A stretch of 49,059 nt of DNA from Desulfobulbaceae bacterium (GTDB lineage Bacteria; Desulfobacterota; Desulfobulbia; Desulfobulbales; SURF-16). The notes under the pieces were generated by a model, which worked only from the letters and a program-made list of their open reading frames with translations, made no database searches and was not told where the DNA came from. The DNA lies in the NCBI GenBank assembly GCA_020444175.1, contig JAHLLM010000041.1:1-49059 (forward strand), in the 5' to 3' direction. Made by a program: the position numbers and the translations under genes. Shown one piece after another: positions 4,670-49,059 of the stretch; position 1 is the stretch's first letter, and every line of letters begins with the position of its first letter.

Positions 4670-4690
4670 GCTTTTCAATGTTCCAAGTTT

Positions 4691-4791
4691 GACGGTTTCG
4701 TAAAAAACCCCTCAACCGCCGCCGACAAGTATGTAACTTGTTGATATTGCGTTGGCGGATGGTCAGCTTGAGAGCTATTTGCGAGACCATC
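4691..4791 (+). mobile_element. 101-bp MITE-like foldback element, copy A
   Basis: This 101-bp element is bounded by the perfect direct repeat AAGTTT (4685-4690 and 4792-4797). Its ends are imperfect inverted repeats, GACGGTTTCGTAAA at the left and the complement of GATGGTCTCGCAAA at the right. Internal dyads include ACAAGT/ACTTGT around ATGTA and CCGCC/GGCGG. It is 97/101 identical to copy B (23549-23649) in the opposite orientation. It has no coding capacity and sits between ruvB and panB. Boundaries could shift by one base because of the flanking A/T. Confidence 0.82.
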
Positions 4792-5052
4792 AAGTTTCAA
4801 GTTCAATGTTTTTGTTTTAAATTGCTGTCTTGGAATTGACGGCTGCTCCTATTCATGGAACGACTTTTGTCGTTACGGAATCCATTGATGTCAGAAAAAT
4901 CGAAATGAAATTCTTTCTTCATTCTTGAATTTTGAGCTTTTTGTTTGGTAAAAGAAGATATTTGAAGTCATTTTAGATAGTTTTGTTCGTTTTCCTCACT
5001 TTTCCCTTTGTGTCTCCGCATCCTTTGCGCTAAAATTATTTCTGGTGCTTAT
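4792..5052 (+). other. panB upstream region, no gene
   Basis: The remainder of the ruvB-panB gap is AT-rich and has no convincing ORF. It holds a small perfect hairpin (AACGAC-TTTT-GTCGTT, 4859-4874). The promoter for panB-motAB should lie here, but no -35/-10 pair is good enough to mark. Confidence 0.5.
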
Positions 5053-15622: not shown

Positions 15623-16510
15623 CTAAATTTTTAAAAATTTTCGAATTGAAAGAAGGCTTCCCAATACGCAGAGAAGAACACTACAGAGCAGAATAGCGGT
15701 GCAGTGGGACCAGGGAAGAAAATTCAGTTTAAAAAGGTTCACCAGGCTCGGTCCTGCAAAATGACTTTTGATCCACTGAAAAAGAGAAAAAAGAGAGAGC
15801 AAACCTATTCCCGCACCCACAAAACCGAGGAGAAAACCTTCAATAAGTACTGGCCCCTTGATATAGCTGTTTGTGGCGCCAAGGTAACGAAGAACCTTGA
15901 GTTCTTTTTGACGGGCGTACAGGCTCAGGCGGAGCGTGTTTGATACCATGAACATAGTTGTAAGGATGAGAAGGGAGCCGCTGATTATCACAATAAATCG
16001 GAGCAGCTTGGTGAAATACTCAAAGCGTTCGACCCAGCCATGTCCGTACTGGACTTTTGCGGTGCCGGGGAGGTTCTCCAGATAATCGGAAAAATCCTTT
16101 ATTCTGCTCAGGTTCTTAAGGTCTTTGTGCGGGTATATCTCAACAGAATAGGGCAGGAAGGAGGAGTCGAGATCCTCAAGCACATCCCGGTCATTGCCGA
16201 GCTGGTCGCGTAACTGTGCAAAGGCCTCATCCGGAGTGATAAAGACTACCTTGTCTACTTTGCTGAAGCTTTCTACTTTTTTTGTGAAAAGTATCTGTTC
16301 ATCTGCTGTTAATCCTGAGTCCAGATAGACTATGAGTCGCAGTTCTTCCCCGAGTCTCACTCCTGTCTGAACCATATTGACATAAATAAGATAAAAGAAA
16401 GAAAAAATAAGAACGGACAGGGTGACAGTAAGCAGGGTCATCAACTGAAGACCCCAGGACTGGAGGACATTCCTGCCTGTTTGTGTGAAGATAAATGTAA
16501 GAAGTCTCAT
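15623..16510 (-). CDS. ftsX: cell division permease-like protein FtsX
   Basis: FtsX is the membrane half of the FtsEX complex, which passes ATP-driven conformational signals to periplasmic hydrolase activators. The 295-residue protein has the expected four membrane helices: about 22-44, 168-192, 217-240 and 268-288. A large periplasmic domain (about 48-160) lies between the first two. The sequence FMVSNTLRLSLYARQKELKVLRYLGATNSYIKGP is the family signature. ftsE lies upstream, but a 192-bp gap separates them. That gap is mostly a 153-bp inserted element. Confidence 0.94.
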   Translation of the reverse strand: MRLLTFIFTQTGRNVLQSWGLQLMTLLTVTLSVLIFSFFYLIYVNMVQTGVRLGEELRLIVYLDSGLTADEQILFTKKVESFSKVDKVVFITPDEAFAQLRDQLGNDRDVLEDLDSSFLPYSVEIYPHKDLKNLSRIKDFSDYLENLPGTAKVQYGHGWVERFEYFTKLLRFIVIISGSLLILTTMFMVSNTLRLSLYARQKELKVLRYLGATNSYIKGPVLIEGFLLGFVGAGIGLLSLFSLFQWIKSHFAGPSLVNLFKLNFLPWSHCTAILLCSVLLCVLGSLLSIRKFLKI

Positions 16511-16539
16511 GGGAGAAAATTATTTTTCTTTGTTGTTAA

Positions 16540-16692
16540 GTAACTATTCAGCTGCACCTCATCTTTGAACGATCAGGCCTGCTCACATAGACGGGCTATA
16601 GCCTCGCAGGCCTGCTTGTCCAAATCTAAGGCACATCTGAATAGTTACGGCCTGGAGTTGAGGCCCATTTCGAGCCCTCGCTGAATAGATAC
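16540..16692 (+). mobile_element. 153-bp MITE-like element, copy 1 (between ftsE and ftsX)
   Basis: The element is bounded by the perfect 8-bp direct repeat GTTGTTAA (16532-16539 and 16693-16700). Its outer ends are near-perfect inverted repeats: GTAACTATTCAGC at the left and the complement of GTATCTATTCAGC at the right. A second inverted copy of the left end (CTGAATAGTTAC, 16637-16648) closes an internal 109-bp foldback. Inside this are CAGGCCTGC/GCAGGCCTG and the palindrome GGCTATAGCC. It has no ORF. Copy 2 (29872-30024) differs at only two positions. From general knowledge, GTAA ends and 8-bp duplications fit IS66-family mobilisation. Confidence 0.9.
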
Positions 16693-16702
16693 GTTGTTAA
16701 TA

Positions 16703-17500
16703 TCATGAATTTACCCTCTGTAATTCACCCTGCTGTAATTCGAACTGCTGATGATGGGTTCCCTGGTAGATTGATTTATCGTGGGTAGCGATGATGATTG
16801 CAGAACCACTTTCATTCAGTTCATGGAAAAGGTCCATCACCTGGCTGGTGGTCTGCGGATCCAGGTTGCCGGTGGGTTCGTCGGCAAGTATGAGGGGAGG
16901 AACGTTGGCCGCAGCCCTTGCAATGGCAACCCTCTGTTGCTCTCCCCTGGAGAGTTTGCCGGCCGGTTTGTGTATTTTTTCCGACAGCGAGAGTTTTTCG
17001 AGCAATTCAAGGACCCGTTGCTTGATTTCTTTTTTGTTTTTAAACTGTACTTCCATTGCCATGGCAATATTCTGGTAAACGGATTGTCTTGGCAGCAGCC
17101 TGAAATCCTGGTAGGCAACGCCGATACGCTGTCTGAGTTTCTGGGTGGCGTTGGAGTTGAGTTTGTTCAGGTCGTTCCCGCCGATCTCAATGAGACCTTT
17201 TGTGGGGCGTTCGAGGCGGCAGAGGAGTTTCAGGAGAGTTGTTTTTCCAGCCCCGCTGGCACCGGTCAGGAAGACGATTTCTCCTTTGCGGGCTGTAAAA
17301 GAAACATTACGGAGGGCCACAACATCAGGAGGGTAGATTTTTGTTACTTTAACAAGTTCCACAATGATACTTTTCTCGTCACCCTCTGAATGATCCTCCA
17401 TGGACGGTTGAAAAGTAAACGTTGGTCTGTCTTCGGTATGTTCTTGCATGATTTCAAATTTTGATTTCAATAAATTGTTCTTTGGGTGCTTCGTGGGCAA
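16703..17500 (-). CDS. ftsE: cell division ATP-binding protein FtsE
   Basis: FtsE is the cytoplasmic ABC ATPase of the FtsEX complex. Motifs are Walker A TGASGAGKTTLLKLL, Q-loop YQDFRLL, ABC signature LSRGEQQRVAIARA and Walker B LILADEPTGNLD. The ATP-binding domain starts with VELVKVTKIYPPDVVALRNVSF. The 265-residue version uses a TTG at 17500. An in-frame ATG at 17449 gives 248 residues. Neither has a strong Shine-Dalgarno sequence, so the start is uncertain, and the extra 40-45 residues before the domain are not typical. ftsX follows across an inserted element. Confidence 0.93.
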   Translation of the reverse strand: MPTKHPKNNLLKSKFEIMQEHTEDRPTFTFQPSMEDHSEGDEKSIIVELVKVTKIYPPDVVALRNVSFTARKGEIVFLTGASGAGKTTLLKLLCRLERPTKGLIEIGGNDLNKLNSNATQKLRQRIGVAYQDFRLLPRQSVYQNIAMAMEVQFKNKKEIKQRVLELLEKLSLSEKIHKPAGKLSRGEQQRVAIARAAANVPPLILADEPTGNLDPQTTSQVMDLFHELNESGSAIIIATHDKSIYQGTHHQQFELQQGELQRVNS

Positions 17501-17559
17501 CAGCCTATTTAAAGATGAGCTTTGACGTTATCCTCACCTTAAACTGTTTTTAAAAGAAA

Positions 17560-17589
17560 TTGACACCTTTTTCGTGTATATTGTATATC
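17560..17589 (+). promoter_or_regulatory. candidate sigma-70-type promoter and adjacent dyad
   Basis: TTGACA at 17560-17565 is a perfect -35 hexamer. Weak -10 candidates follow at 17-18 bp (GTATAT or TATATC). A 7-bp dyad TTGAAAT-TT-ATTTCAA lies just beyond, at 17605-17620, and could be an operator. The region is shared by the divergent ftsE and the sigma-54 regulator gene. The orientation fits the regulator, but copy 3 of the 153-bp element lies between this site and the gene. Confidence 0.35.
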
Positions 17590-17628
17590 AAAAGTACGTA
17601 ATAATTGAAATTTATTTCAAATACAACC

Positions 17629-17780
17629 GTAACTGTCCATCTGCACCCCATCTTCGTGCGATCTGGCCTGCTCACATAGGCCACTATAGATTCGCAGTCC
17701 CGCTTACACGAATCTGGGCCACATCTGCACAGTTACAGGCCGGAGCTAGGGCACGTTTTGTGTTTTAGCTGAATTAGTAC
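17629..17780 (+). mobile_element. 152-bp diverged copy 3 of the 153-bp MITE-like family
   Basis: It is bounded by the perfect 8-bp direct repeat ATACAACC (17621-17628 and 17781-17788). It starts GTAACTGTCC, has an internal inverted partner ACAGTTAC (17729-17736) and ends GCTGAATTAGTAC. The sequence is clearly diverged from copies 1 and 2 but keeps CTGCTCACATAG, CTATAG and the stem pattern. Several stem differences are pair-preserving. It lies between ftsE and the following regulator and has no gene. Confidence 0.85.
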
Positions 17781-17914
17781 ATACAACCAATCTTAAGCGG
17801 TTTGTTCCGAGTTGAAGCACCATAAGTCAATTGCGTTGAGTCAAAGAGTTATGATGTTTTATCAGAGCGAAGCCTGTTAGCGCGAAACCGTGAACCGAAA
17901 TAAGCGAGAGTCCA

Positions 17915-18934
17915 TTGGCTGAACCTCTAACCGCAGAAAATAACTCCCCGGAAGCGCCTTCAACGAAACCTTTCCCTCGTATCATCGGGCAGAGTAAGCC
18001 ATTGCTTGAGGTTTTTCAAATTGTTGAAAAGGTTTGTGATACCAATACCACTGTATTAATTCAGGGTGAGAGCGGTACAGGGAAAGAACTTATTGCCCAG
18101 GCTCTCCATTATAGAAGTGAGAGAAGAGATGCGCCTTTTGTTCCTGTGAACTGCGGGGCCATACCGGGGGAGCTCCTTGAAAGCGAACTCTTTGGCCATG
18201 AGAAAGGTGCCTTTACCCATGCCGTCCGAACCCGTCTCGGACGTTTTGAACTGGCCCATGGGGGAACGGTTTTTCTGGATGAAATTGCCGAAATGAGTCC
18301 CATGCTCCAGGTTAAACTTCTGAGAGTACTCCAGGAAAAACAGTTTGAGAGAATTGGCGGCACAAAGACGATTACGTCTGATTTCCGAGTGATTGCCGCT
18401 ACAAACAGGGACCTTGAGGAGGAAGTGGCGAACGGCGGTTTCAGAGAGGATCTTTATTACCGTCTGACTGTCGTGCCCATTCAAGCTCCGCCCCTGCGGA
18501 CCAGAAGTTCGGATATTCCCCTTCTGGTGGAAAGTTTTATCGAAAAATTCAATAGTTCCAAAAAAAGATCGATTAAAGGAATATCTGATGAGGCCATGAA
18601 TTTTCTGCTTCACTATTCCTGGCCTGGAAATGTACGTGAACTTGAGAATGTCATTGAAAGAATGGTGATTCTTGCTTTAGACGACGATACTCTCACTGTT
18701 GACGATTTACCGCAGCGTATTCTTGACCCGGAACATCGGGTCGATCATACTGGAGAAATCCCGGCCCAGGGCTTATGTCTGAGTGAAGAGGTGGCTGAGT
18801 TTGAAAAACGATTAATTATCCAGGCCCTGGATCAAACCGACTGGGTGAAAAATCGTGCTGCAAATCTCCTGCAGGTTAACCGGACGACGCTTCTTGAAAA
18901 GATGAAAAGGTATGGAATTGTTAAAGGAAATTGA
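17915..18934 (+). CDS. sigma-54-dependent activator without receiver domain
   Basis: The 339-residue protein consists of a short N-terminus, an AAA+ activator domain and a Fis-type HTH. Walker A is GESGTGKE (51-58) and Walker B is GGTVFLDEIAE (116-126). The sigma-54 contact loop, normally GAFTGA, reads GAFTHA at 98-103. The HTH (KNRAANLLQVNRTTLLEKMKRYGI) ends the protein. The start is TTG at 17915 after the purine stretch AAGCGAGAG. It has no receiver or GAF domain, so it may be constitutively active or controlled by a partner. It overlaps the next gene by 23 bp and lies near the flagellar cluster. A flagellar or envelope role is inferred. Confidence 0.9.
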   Translation: MAEPLTAENNSPEAPSTKPFPRIIGQSKPLLEVFQIVEKVCDTNTTVLIQGESGTGKELIAQALHYRSERRDAPFVPVNCGAIPGELLESELFGHEKGAFTHAVRTRLGRFELAHGGTVFLDEIAEMSPMLQVKLLRVLQEKQFERIGGTKTITSDFRVIAATNRDLEEEVANGGFREDLYYRLTVVPIQAPPLRTRSSDIPLLVESFIEKFNSSKKRSIKGISDEAMNFLLHYSWPGNVRELENVIERMVILALDDDTLTVDDLPQRILDPEHRVDHTGEIPAQGLCLSEEVAEFEKRLIIQALDQTDWVKNRAANLLQVNRTTLLEKMKRYGIVKGN

Positions 18935-23530: not shown

Positions 23531-23548
23531 TTAAGGACAATGAATCAT

Positions 23549-23649
23549 GATGGTCTCGCAAAAAGCTCTCAAGCTGACCATCCGCCAACGAAATATCAAC
23601 AAGTTACATACTTGTCGGCGGCGGTTGAGGGGGGTTTTACGAAACCGTC
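23549..23649 (-). mobile_element. 101-bp MITE-like foldback element, copy B (between flgC and fliE)
   Basis: The element is inverted relative to copy A and flanked by the perfect 6-bp direct repeat AATCAT (23543-23548 and 23650-23655). It has the same length as copy A, with four base differences. The homopolymer junction is A4C6 here and A6C4 in copy A, with total length kept. It occupies more than half of the 193-bp flgC-fliE gap. Confidence 0.85.
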
Positions 23650-23723
23650 AATCATTATCCGTTCTACGAGTTTGGATGCAATCGTAGCTCTGGATTGACA
23701 TGTGAGAGTGAGGGTTAAAAAAA

Positions 23724-29371: not shown

Positions 29372-29860
29372 ATGATATCAAAGTATAAAAAAATATCCTG
29401 CTTCACCCTTGGACTCATTTTTATGGGTGTTTCCTGTGCGTATTGTGAAGACAAGCCTGTCACAGTTAACGAGAAGGAAATAGAAAAAGCCATTTCCCTT
29501 AAAAGCAGAGAAGAAGCTCTCGCCTCCAGGGAAAAGGATTTGGCTGCGCGGGAAAAAAATATCTACACCCTGCAAAAAGAGGTTGATGAGAAGCTTGAAC
29601 AGATCTCCCGTCTTCAAAAGGATATTGAAAGCAAGCTTGAAGAAATAAAGCAGGAGCAGGATCAGAGCTTTCGTAATCTCATCAAGGTGTACAGCTCAAT
29701 GAGTGCCACCAAGCTGGCCCCGCTCCTCAACCAGATGACCGATGAGAATGTGGCCCGTATCCTGCGTGCCATGAAAACCGATCAGGTTGCTCAGATTATG
29801 CCGAAAATCGACAGCGACAAAGCCGTCAGGGTCAGTCGGTTGCTCGGACGTTTCCAATAA
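29372..29860 (+). CDS. MotE/YlxF-like exported coiled-coil protein
   Basis: The 162-residue protein has a signal peptide (about 7-26), a coiled coil (35-105) with SREEALASREKDLAAREKNI, and a C-terminal MgtE-N-like domain (VYSSMSATKLAPLLNQMTDENVARILRAMKTDQVAQIMPKID...). This architecture is that of MotE, a MotC chaperone in rhizobia, and of the YlxF proteins encoded next to fliJ in many bacteria. It probably acts in the periplasm on stator or rod assembly. The next 562 bp contain two inserted elements before fliK. Confidence 0.85.
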   Translation: MISKYKKISCFTLGLIFMGVSCAYCEDKPVTVNEKEIEKAISLKSREEALASREKDLAAREKNIYTLQKEVDEKLEQISRLQKDIESKLEEIKQEQDQSFRNLIKVYSSMSATKLAPLLNQMTDENVARILRAMKTDQVAQIMPKIDSDKAVRVSRLLGRFQ

Positions 29861-29871
29861 CTCCCCTTCCT

Positions 29872-30024
29872 GTAACCATTCAGCTGCACCTCATCTTTGA
29901 ACGATCAGGCCTGCTCACATAGACGGGCTATAGCTTCGCAGGCCTGCTTGTCCAAATCTAAGGCACATCTGAATAGTTACGGCCTGGAGTTGAGGCCCAT
30001 TTCGAGCCCTCGCTGAATAGATAC
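29872..30024 (+). mobile_element. 153-bp MITE-like element, copy 2 (in the flagellar cluster)
   Basis: It is bounded by the perfect 8-bp direct repeat CCCTTCCT (29864-29871 and 30025-30032). The sequence differs from copy 1 at two of 153 positions: T/C at base 6, in the terminal arm, and C/T in the central palindrome. It is in the same orientation, 12 bp after the motE-like stop. Near-identity to copy 1 and an intact duplication indicate recent movement. Confidence 0.9.
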
Positions 30025-30278
30025 CCCTTCCTTTATATTTTATCCTTTCTTCCAGGTTCCTCTTCCGGGAAAATCTTTCCTAGCCCCTCTGTCTTTACTG
30101 GTCAAAACCTGCCAGTTGTCTCCCCTGTTTGGATATTGCCGTCTTTTTCGCGAATGCGTTAATATGTGCTAATGTGCTGAAATTAAATAAGTATTTAAGA
30201 AAATGTTTTTCTTTGATGTGCCGTGGTTTTTTCTGGCATCTCAATTGCACTTATGGTCCTGCAAGAAAAACTTTATTT

Positions 30279-30400
30279 GACTGGTTCGCATTTATGCCCT
30301 TCAGGGTAAAAAAAACCGCTTAACCGCCGACGACACGTATGTAACTTGGTGATATTACTTTGGCGGATGGTCAGCTTCAGAGCTTTTTGCGATATTGTCA
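30279..30400 (+). mobile_element. diverged 122-bp copy C of the 101-bp MITE-like family
   Basis: From about 30305 the sequence follows copy A (AACCGCCGACGACACGTATGTAACTTGGTGATATTACTTTGGCGGATGGTCAGCTT in pattern, with substitutions). The left end GACTGGTTCGCA is separated from the body by about 18 extra bases. The repeat TTATTT flanks it (30273-30278 and 30401-30406). The left boundary is inferred. It ends just before the fliK ribosome site GAGGAGGGAG. Confidence 0.6.
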
Positions 30401-30422
30401 TTATTTGAGGAGGGAGATTCAC

Positions 30423-35683: not shown

Positions 35684-35772
35684 ACCACGAAGAGCACGAA
35701 GCACACGAAGAAAAGCCTTAAATTTTTTTCAAAACTTCGTGTGCTTCGTGCTCTTCGTGGTTTATTTTTTTG
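35684..35772 (+). terminator. 27-bp perfect inverted repeat after flgE (terminator)
   Basis: ACCACGAAGAGCACGAAGCA and seven further bases (35684-35710) pair perfectly with 35735-35761 across a 24-bp spacer. TTTATTTTTTTG follows on the plus strand, so it should terminate the flagellar transcript. Each arm is itself built from CACGAAG units. The minus-strand side has no T run, so it is a weaker terminator for cooC. Confidence 0.8.
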
Positions 35773-48935: not shown

Positions 48936-49007
48936 GTCATTCCCGCGAAAGCGGGAATCTAGGCGGATTAGCCAACTACTCTGGATTCCCGCTTTCGCGG
49001 GAATGAC
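48936..49007. repeat. paired ATTCCCGC palindromes (dRS3-like repeat)
   Basis: GTCATTCCCGCGAAAGCGGG and four further bases (48936-48959) are repeated as a perfect 24-bp inverted copy at 48984-49007 across a 24-bp spacer. Each arm is also a hairpin: TTCCCGC, loop GAAA or TTTC, GCGGGAA. The core resembles dRS3-type repeats scattered in many bacterial genomes. Confidence 0.9.
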
Positions 49008-49011
49008 TTTT

Positions 49012-49059
49012 GACGGTTTCGTAAAAACCCCCTCAACCGCCGCCGACAAGTATGTAACT
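49012..49059 (+). mobile_element. 101-bp MITE-like family, copy D (cut by window end)
   Basis: The first 48 bases of the element are present from GACGGTTTCGTAAAAACCCC onward, with an A5C5 junction intermediate between copies A and B. It begins four bases after the paired palindromes. The right end and flanking duplication lie outside the window. Confidence 0.8.

Follow-up and report, generated by a model that had tools for sequence, protein, structure and literature searches.

Introduction

Mobile palindromes that occupy intergenic space are well known from the REPIN/RAYT system, which has a Y1 transposase and is not known to leave target duplications of the kind described below. Miniature elements with stable stem-loops are also already known, among them the 127-bp enterobacterial repeats ERIC (or IRU) and other small bacterial miniature inverted-repeat transposable elements (MITEs) such as NEMIS, RUP and CIR; according to the part of the source accessible to us, elements of the ERIC/NEMIS type mostly carry TA at their termini and the RNA structures of CIR are called phylogenetically conserved (PMC2229807). 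Concerning insertion sequences, the accessible part of PMC11946415 gives GTAAGCG as the start of the classical IS66 inverted repeats.

The element described here, from the genome of a Desulfobulbaceae bacterium, is like REPINs a mobile intergenic palindrome, but it has target duplications, of either 8 or 5 bp. ERIC, NEMIS, RUP and CIR have the same size (ca. 100-200 bp) and stable stem-loops, some of them in several genera; the element differs from these in its 8-bp duplications and IS66 ends, and in a hairpin core that is found across two carriers and covaries across the phylum. The TA termini of the ERIC/NEMIS type are not present, the ends being GTAAC...GATAC with 8-bp duplications of varied sequence. 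With IS66-family elements that have one transposase and GTAAC ends (loci L102, L414, L415, L416 and L117) it shares the same or near-identical 13-bp ends and the duplication length, whereas it has no transposase gene and carries a hairpin which, except for a 31-nt match at E 0.014, is absent from 33 IS66 loci.

No description of this family was found in the literature on MITEs, IS66, palindromic repeats and structured RNAs of Deltaproteobacteria, of which few subscription journals were covered. None of PMC11946415, PMC3189936 and PMC2229807 describes it in their accessible parts, PMC2267715 contains no occurrence of 'Desulf', and what the literature yielded on MITEs together with structured RNA and covariation concerns plant retrozymes. 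A core conserved in the phylum and common to two end types is, to our knowledge, new. This conserved hairpin, missed by an earlier sequence-only reading of the same DNA, is the main point of the present work.

Results

Three copies in the window

The window, i.e. the whole stretch of 49,059 nucleotides analyzed, harbors three copies of the element, each with its hairpin on the minus strand. The sequence-only reading had reported their positions, their ends and perfect 8-bp duplications that differ each time, and all of this was re-found, with the ends inverted. Copy 1 (16540..16692, 153 bp) lies between ftsE and ftsX, co-directional with ftsEX (FtsE scores above its NCBIfam cut-off, the best FtsX match just below its own), and is flanked by GTTGTTAA at 16532..16539 and 16693..16700. 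Its larger part is a 109-nt hairpin module (16540..16648, minus strand), supported by the fold and by the covariance model R1 (118.2 bits, E 1.4e-25, as a member of the training set); its base is formed by two outward-facing ends that resemble terminal repeats. Without the terminal repeats there remains an 83-nt hairpin core (16553..16635, minus strand; 93.2 bits with the core-only model R2, again as a training-set member). The 44-bp tail (16649..16692, unstranded), closed by the distal terminal repeat GTATCTATTCAGC (minus strand), is a leader if the minus strand is read.

Copy 2 (17629..17780, 152 bp) separates the ftsE start (minus) from a sigma-54-type regulator gene that diverges from it (17915, plus), with ATACAACC at 17621..17628 and 17781..17788 and a hairpin module at 17629..17736 on the minus strand (R1 94.9 bits, training-set member). 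In copy 3 (29872..30024, 153 bp) the hairpin strand is opposite to the adjoining genes; its duplication CCCTTCCT occupies 29864..29871, starting a few bp beyond the stop of the ORF at 29372-29860, and 30025..30032, and the module spans 29872..29980 on the minus strand (R1 116.1 bits). The ends are GTAACTATTCAGC and GCTGAATAGATAC in copy 1, GTAACCATTCAGC and GCTGAATAGATAC in copy 3, and GTAACTGTCCATC and GCTGAATTAGTAC in copy 2. Copies 1 and 3 are 99% identical, and copy 2 represents a diverged subfamily (84% identity over the first 51 nt).

At one fixed boundary pair, flanks matching in 8 of 8 positions are expected by chance with a probability of ca. 1.6e-5, given this base composition. Two statements of the sequence-only reading need qualification. 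A unit of 153 bp is indeed the main size class, but the same genome contains copies of 79, 147, 152, 154, 159, 163, 176/177, 180 and 204/205 bp with 7-8/8 duplications; and the absence of ORFs holds for gene-sized frames only, the longest complete ORFs in copies 1 to 3 having 39, 12 and 39 aa.

Repeats of other kinds are also found in the window. A dispersed repeat of ca. 111 nt (TTTGACGGTTTCGTAAAAA...) is present in four copies, at 4688-4799, 23541-23651 (inverted), 30296-30405 and 49009-49059 (cut by the window end), and 27-nt inverted repeats, perfect or near-perfect, at 35684-35761 and 48936-49007 (ACCACGAAGAGCACGAAG..., GTCATTCCCGCGAAAGCGGGAAT...).

Copy number and transposition

The genome that contains the window is a 5.42-Mb draft of 90 contigs. 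BLASTN with the 153-bp query, including reverse-strand matches of the palindrome, gave at least 61 matches at no fewer than 40 distinct places (40 of 171 first-look candidates scored), and R1, with 150 of 1198 candidates scored, located hairpins at a minimum of 73 distinct places (E <=0.01). The 13-base end pattern with up to 2 mismatches occurs 722 times on both strands, compared with 322 for the reversed control; allowing up to three ends per element, this excess suggests some 150-200 elements, which is an estimate only. Many of these copies are 97-100% identical to each other, and two are 100% identical across the 153 bp, a sign of recent activity. All 28 own copies examined for placement are intergenic (crude ORF calls, >=100 aa).

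Flanking 8-mers were tabulated for 50 of the 73 hairpin places, leaving the other 23 outside the counts, and both here and for the named contigs below the distal end was chosen by its terminal-repeat match alone. A distal end was recognizable in 49 places, with 8/8 matches in 31, 7/8 in 12 and at most 6/8 in 6. Hence 43/49 match in 7-8 of 8 positions, against 1.15% when left flanks are paired with right flanks of other copies (8/8 0.13%, 7/8 1.02%), which demonstrates the transposition that the sequence-only reading had proposed. One of the six misses, C78, becomes 8/8 under an alternative boundary reading. The target sites of the 43 copies are 78.5% A+T; read on the hairpin strand, their duplications lean to A at positions 1-3 and to T at positions 4-8, so that a T-run often lies a few bases past the hairpin.

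Among the matches listed for named contigs (with titles Desulfobulbaceae, Desulfobulbus, Desulfobia, Deltaproteobacteria and a few Proteobacteria/Pseudomonadota MAGs) there are 51 copies. Of these 50 were placed, yielding 8/8 duplications in 29 and 7/8 in 7, i.e. 36/50 (7/8 null 0.45%). The loci used comprise 47 of 50 named ones, three with edge matches being left out, plus two viral ones. Copies without a 7/8 duplication are thus 14/50 of those among the matches listed and 6/49 of the own ones. A count of 86/138 loci with 7-8/8 duplications was obtained by selecting the best-matching end pair; it is not relied on, and the end-blind 43/49 and 36/50 are preferred. The 36/50 set is not independent of the 86/138 one, as some of its contigs equal in length those already sampled in the latter (L256 and G056:C40, L302 and G011:C138, and L275 and G011:C93).

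To look for an empty site of copy 1, 23 relatives were compared, of which 22 yielded FtsE and 21 an FtsX match (the short locus L409 has FtsE and no FtsX match). These 21 have ftsE-ftsX gaps of about -7 to 249 bp, against 192 bp in the own genome, and R2 detects no hairpin in the gaps of the relatives; G011 has two hairpins upstream of ftsE, not in the gap. Removal of 161 bp (element plus one duplication) would leave an own gap of 31 bp. The comparison consists of gap lengths and hairpin absence, and the single-copy 8-mer is not part of it.

Short copies give some indication of which parts are needed for movement. In two copies of 79 bp the core is missing but the duplications are 8/8; the core may thus be dispensable for movement, unless it was lost after insertion via the short repeat CATCT. 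L144 (107 bp) and L179 (109 bp) show 8/8 duplications at the hairpin base, hence the internal end can act as a transposon end, albeit rarely; used as boundary, it reaches 7/8 in 0/50 of the named-contig copies among the matches listed. Contig ends inside elements might have pointed to a hidden autonomous copy; this was rejected, because the contig-end loci viewed have the sequence of the short elements right up to the break. L055 and L036 were also discarded as autonomous copies, having no transposase-like ORF by eye. Integron attC sites were rejected by reasoning only, given that the duplications show transposition.

Relation to IS66

The resemblance of the ends and duplications to IS66, which the sequence-only reading had pointed out, is supported, as IS66-family elements with identical 13-bp ends and 8-bp duplications are present in the same order. 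L414 (genome G479) and L415 (G566) have exactly GTAACTATTCAGC at both ends and L416 (G540) has GTAACTATTCAGC/GTAACCATTCAGC, all with 8/8 duplications. L102 (G043), of 1729 bp with ends GTAACTATCCAGC and an 8/8 duplication, codes for a 475-aa transposase. GTAAC ends with perfect 8-bp duplications are also displayed by the IS66 element L117 (G025) and by L424, L425, L427 and L431. Ends were checked in 30 loci with relatives of the L102 transposase, and 21/30 gave no end pair. The L102 and L414 transposases match Pfam PF03050 (L414 with E 3.6e-43), L102 matches the NCBIfam IS66 model NF033517 (289.7 bits, cut-off 180), and Pfam IS66 transposases occur in 26/58 genomes, the own one included. It should be noted that in L117 (2689-3576) the second gene matches the Pfam family DruA, named for the Druantia protein DruA, with 110.2 bits (cut-off 27).

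In G043 the element and the partner IS66 reside in one genome, and 19 bp at the distal end of the element are identical to the IS66 end; G047 has no more than a transposase fragment, with a single end of this kind. G479 contains six equally similar IS66 transposase copies, the best match to L102 after L102's own, and no R2 hairpin match despite them. Candidates for the full-length partner that had been anticipated exist in other genomes of the order, but none was found in the own assembly, where no match to the L102 transposase was obtained at 1e-30; in a 90-contig draft this is a weak absence, and the partner may have been lost. GTATCTATTCAGCGAGG or GTAACTATTCAGC would be the end sequences of an IS66 that may be hidden in this genome.

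The own assembly does contain one complete classical IS66 (L031, 142-2558, with GTAAGCG ends and duplication AGCAGTTC) and one 78-position fragment. L031 was rejected as partner on account of its ends, GTAAGCGACAAATAA. The own-genome element ends start with GTAAC or GTATC, not GTAAGCG, and the element was not filed as a derivative of the classical three-gene IS66 for lack of this start. By our own reading, the host gene of L031 resembles a REP-associated transposase, and a longer copy starts ca. 580 bp away.

Relatives of the L102 transposase occur in 30 genomes, of which 21 have an R2 match (70%, the same as overall), and G051 would be the 22nd by R1 match only. The presence of the partner transposase does not predict that of the element. 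Judged from sequence, we have little doubt that the element would be non-autonomous with IS66-type mobility, mobilization itself being inferred from the identical ends: both the 8-bp target duplication and ends shared with a transposase-coding IS66 element are there, and what is missing is an IS66 partner in the own assembly searched.

Fold and covariation of the hairpin

The layout of a 109-bp palindrome followed by a 44-bp tail recurs across genera, with the length kept and the ends varying by lineage; 62 of the 86 copies with 7-8/8 duplications, own copies included, measure 150-156 bp. In alignment A1 (43 copies) the between-genome identity is 0.645 for the core and 0.41 for the tail interior.

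RNA folding shows a marked strand preference. The strand corresponding to the window-minus one is more stable than its complement in 34/34 non-redundant modules (median z -8.45 vs -4.73), in 63/64 cores and in 13/13 non-GTAA cores of family f76. DNA energy parameters favor the same strand (34/34 modules, 61/64 cores). Paired cells of the 34 modules contain 204 G-T vs 24 A-C, a count that uses the structure predicted on the hairpin strand, which favors G-T. Restricting the analysis to the 25 pairs predicted on both strands of the 64 cores gives 127 G-T vs 35 A-C, and pairs predicted on the other strand still give 147 vs 82. At a tandem U-G/G-U step, 52 and 53 of the 64 sequences retain wobble pairs. 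In A2 and A4 we read the symmetric positions A-G-A-U / A-G-A-U and C-G-A-R / Y-G-A-G as resembling tandem G-A pairs.

Covariation exceeds that of shuffled alignments. In the 34 modules 92.3% of the cells are paired vs 81.0% in shuffled alignments, with 163 double-change cells vs 46.8, and in the 64 cores without terminal repeats 89.6% vs 73.9%, with 294 vs 93.3; in both sets 0/500 shuffles are as high. Related sequences can exceed shuffles without any structure; slid controls drop to 25-45% paired. In L196, a 79-bp copy without core, matching changes occur in both arms of an end, which suggests that DNA-level copying between arms may also create paired changes. What is expected of a structured RNA, i.e. 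covariation beyond shuffles and strand-specific wobble pairs, is observed, and we consider it very likely that selection acts on the single-strand fold. That the folded form is RNA seems probable; there are no expression data and single-strand DNA is not excluded.

No Rfam 15 family exceeds its gathering threshold in window positions 16300-18000 or in 8 loci of other genomes, the sub-threshold matches being SCARNA18 (18.2 bits, threshold 40) and MIR1846 (28.4 bits, threshold 77.5); the scan of L238 returned one neighboring tRNA. No promoter for the hairpin was recognized by eye. Tandem co-directional and opposed orientations with respect to adjoining genes number 9 vs 10 among the 28 own copies and 5 vs 9 among 24 other loci, so no cis effect on neighboring messages is visible.

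Distribution of the element and hairpin

BLASTN finds the element in 27/58 genomes, own included. R2 matches 179/257 genomes of the order, own included, and 56/69 genera; as 17 candidates were scored per genome, copy numbers per genome are lower bounds. In the phylum draw, where the filters were stricter and 9 candidates of each genome were scored, R1 matches 16/395 genomes, again including the own one. All listed R1 matches span the whole model except C33 of the own genome (positions 14-96). Outside the order, R2 matches 23/36 genomes of family f76. This count is not independent, since two f76 sequences (L240 and L249) are in the R2 training set; R1, built only from GTAA-type copies of the order, is independent. 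Carriage by phages was considered as well: in viral contigs the GTAA-type pattern gave 0 stretches and the type-b pattern 2.

Genus g33 shows a single R2 match in each of G054 and G607. The one in G054 (L239, 1501-1607) has the hairpin base GGAAATGTTCAGC...GCTGGACATTTCC, lacks GTAAC ends and overlaps with a called ORF; it is possibly a fixed, non-mobile copy.

A second carrier with different ends

Many f76 cores are enclosed by another element, of ca. 197-209 bp, whose ends are CCTAAATTGAGCG / CGCTCAATTTAGG. When near-exact matches to these are required, both ends are present in 17/52 loci of the f76 set and a 5/5 duplication in 15 rows, or 14/16 distinct places, given that L240 and L350 are one place; the remaining rows have one 4/5 and one 2/5, and 5/5 matches occur in 6/272 cross-pairs. 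Lenient ends yield both ends in 26/54 loci, with 5/5 in 21 (20/25 distinct places), two 4/5 and three of 1-2/5, two of these being short, doubtful pairs. The other 28/54 loci have no CC-type end pair: at least four of them are of GTAA type (L340, L341, L354 and L357), and others include copies cut by contig ends or reduced to the hairpin base. Transposition with 5-bp duplications is hence demonstrated for this carrier as well.

R1, untrained on f76, found three second-form cores (E 5.2e-8, 4.0e-6 and 4.8e-9 per genome), namely L240, L253 and the similar L249, for which no right end was found. G380 has the GTAA-type copy L340 and L249 in one genome. The two carriers have the same core, whereas their ends and duplication lengths (5 vs 8 bp) differ; what stays constant is the core rather than the ends, and the hairpin is therefore not tied to one transposase. 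In a contig of a viral collection, L443 (222-430) is a CC-ended copy of the hairpin element with the 5-bp duplication TTTGA.

IS1380 elements have CC ends and 4-5-bp duplications, and the second carrier resembles them. An IS1380 transposase as the second partner was nevertheless rejected, as PF13701 was found in neither G187 nor G380; matches to it exist in G050 and G125, only one of which, in G050, passes the curated cut-off by itself.

Discussion

In our reading the hairpin is a structured RNA, or else single-strand DNA, that two types of transposon carry as cargo; its expression and function are unproven. The fold could alternatively work as single-stranded DNA, for example on a strand exposed in replication or transposition and bound by a host or transposase protein, thereby aiding movement. 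In the GTAA type the hairpin base does coincide with the transposon ends, DNA parameters also give the stabler hairpin on the same strand, and most tested copies sit between transposon ends. Tandem conserved wobble pairs, though, favor RNA over DNA, and the tandem step is kept as wobble in 52-53/64 sequences; moreover, the core is common to two carriers with different ends and duplication lengths, and the 79-bp copies appear to have inserted without it. We regard a role as DNA as unlikely. Acting as an RNA in cis, the hairpin might be co-transcribed with its neighbors and alter message stability or termination. Such a role, known from ERIC hairpins, which act on co-transcribed messages in an orientation-dependent manner (accessible part of PMC2229807), would suit the intergenic placement of all 28 own copies, within the limits of the crude ORF calls, and the location of copy 1 inside the ftsEX operon in the same direction, but it should favor one direction, and the lack of orientation bias in own copies and other loci makes it distinctly improbable.

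The palindrome might also be a chance product of IS66 ends in an ordinary miniature element, spread by recent horizontal transfer, with arm-to-arm copying making the matched changes. Long stem-loops are formed by known small bacterial repeats (PMC2229807, as far as accessible), L196 has matched changes in both arms, and many copies within a genome are 97-100% identical. Copying between arms, however, gives perfect pairs and cannot explain the G-T over A-C excess (127/35 or 204/24); apart from the 31-nt match, the core is absent from the IS66 loci, and it keeps its shape at ca. 64% identity between genomes, where the tail interior falls to 41%. This explanation is largely refuted and retains only a slight chance.

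The reading of the hairpin as cargo could then be put as follows. The repeat would be a non-autonomous IS66-type transposon, of the branch with one transposase of ca. 475 aa and GTAAC ends, and this enzyme, as inferred from the shared ends, would act in trans on the two 13-bp ends and leave an 8-bp duplication at A/T-rich sites. The cargo would be a hairpin of ca. 82-109 nt on one strand rather than a decayed transposase gene, kept by selection as a folded single strand, presumably RNA, whose function for itself or for the host is likewise inferred. Independent of the transposase and carried by two transposon types, it would most likely be a small structured RNA, with genes that increase in number and disperse by making use of any transposase at hand. 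We consider the whole, an IS66-type non-autonomous carrier with a structured RNA cargo of inferred function and unproven expression, a reasonably probable explanation. Only tentatively, and with the balance against it, do we suggest a mobile RNA gene family, in which the RNA is the unit of selection, is present in tens of copies per genome and switches transposon ends across part of the Desulfobacterota, the transposon serving merely as vehicle for an RNA that benefits itself or its host.

Should expression be shown, the RNA family would in itself be new. Short repeats in bacteria are commonly regarded as inert insertion-sequence debris, and here the interior of one gives strong and strand-specific evidence of a selected fold, in much of an order and also in a second carrier whose ends differ. 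The question whether bacterial miniature elements carry functional RNA thus becomes testable, with a defined model, many natural variants, 79-bp core deletions and a candidate transposase at hand.
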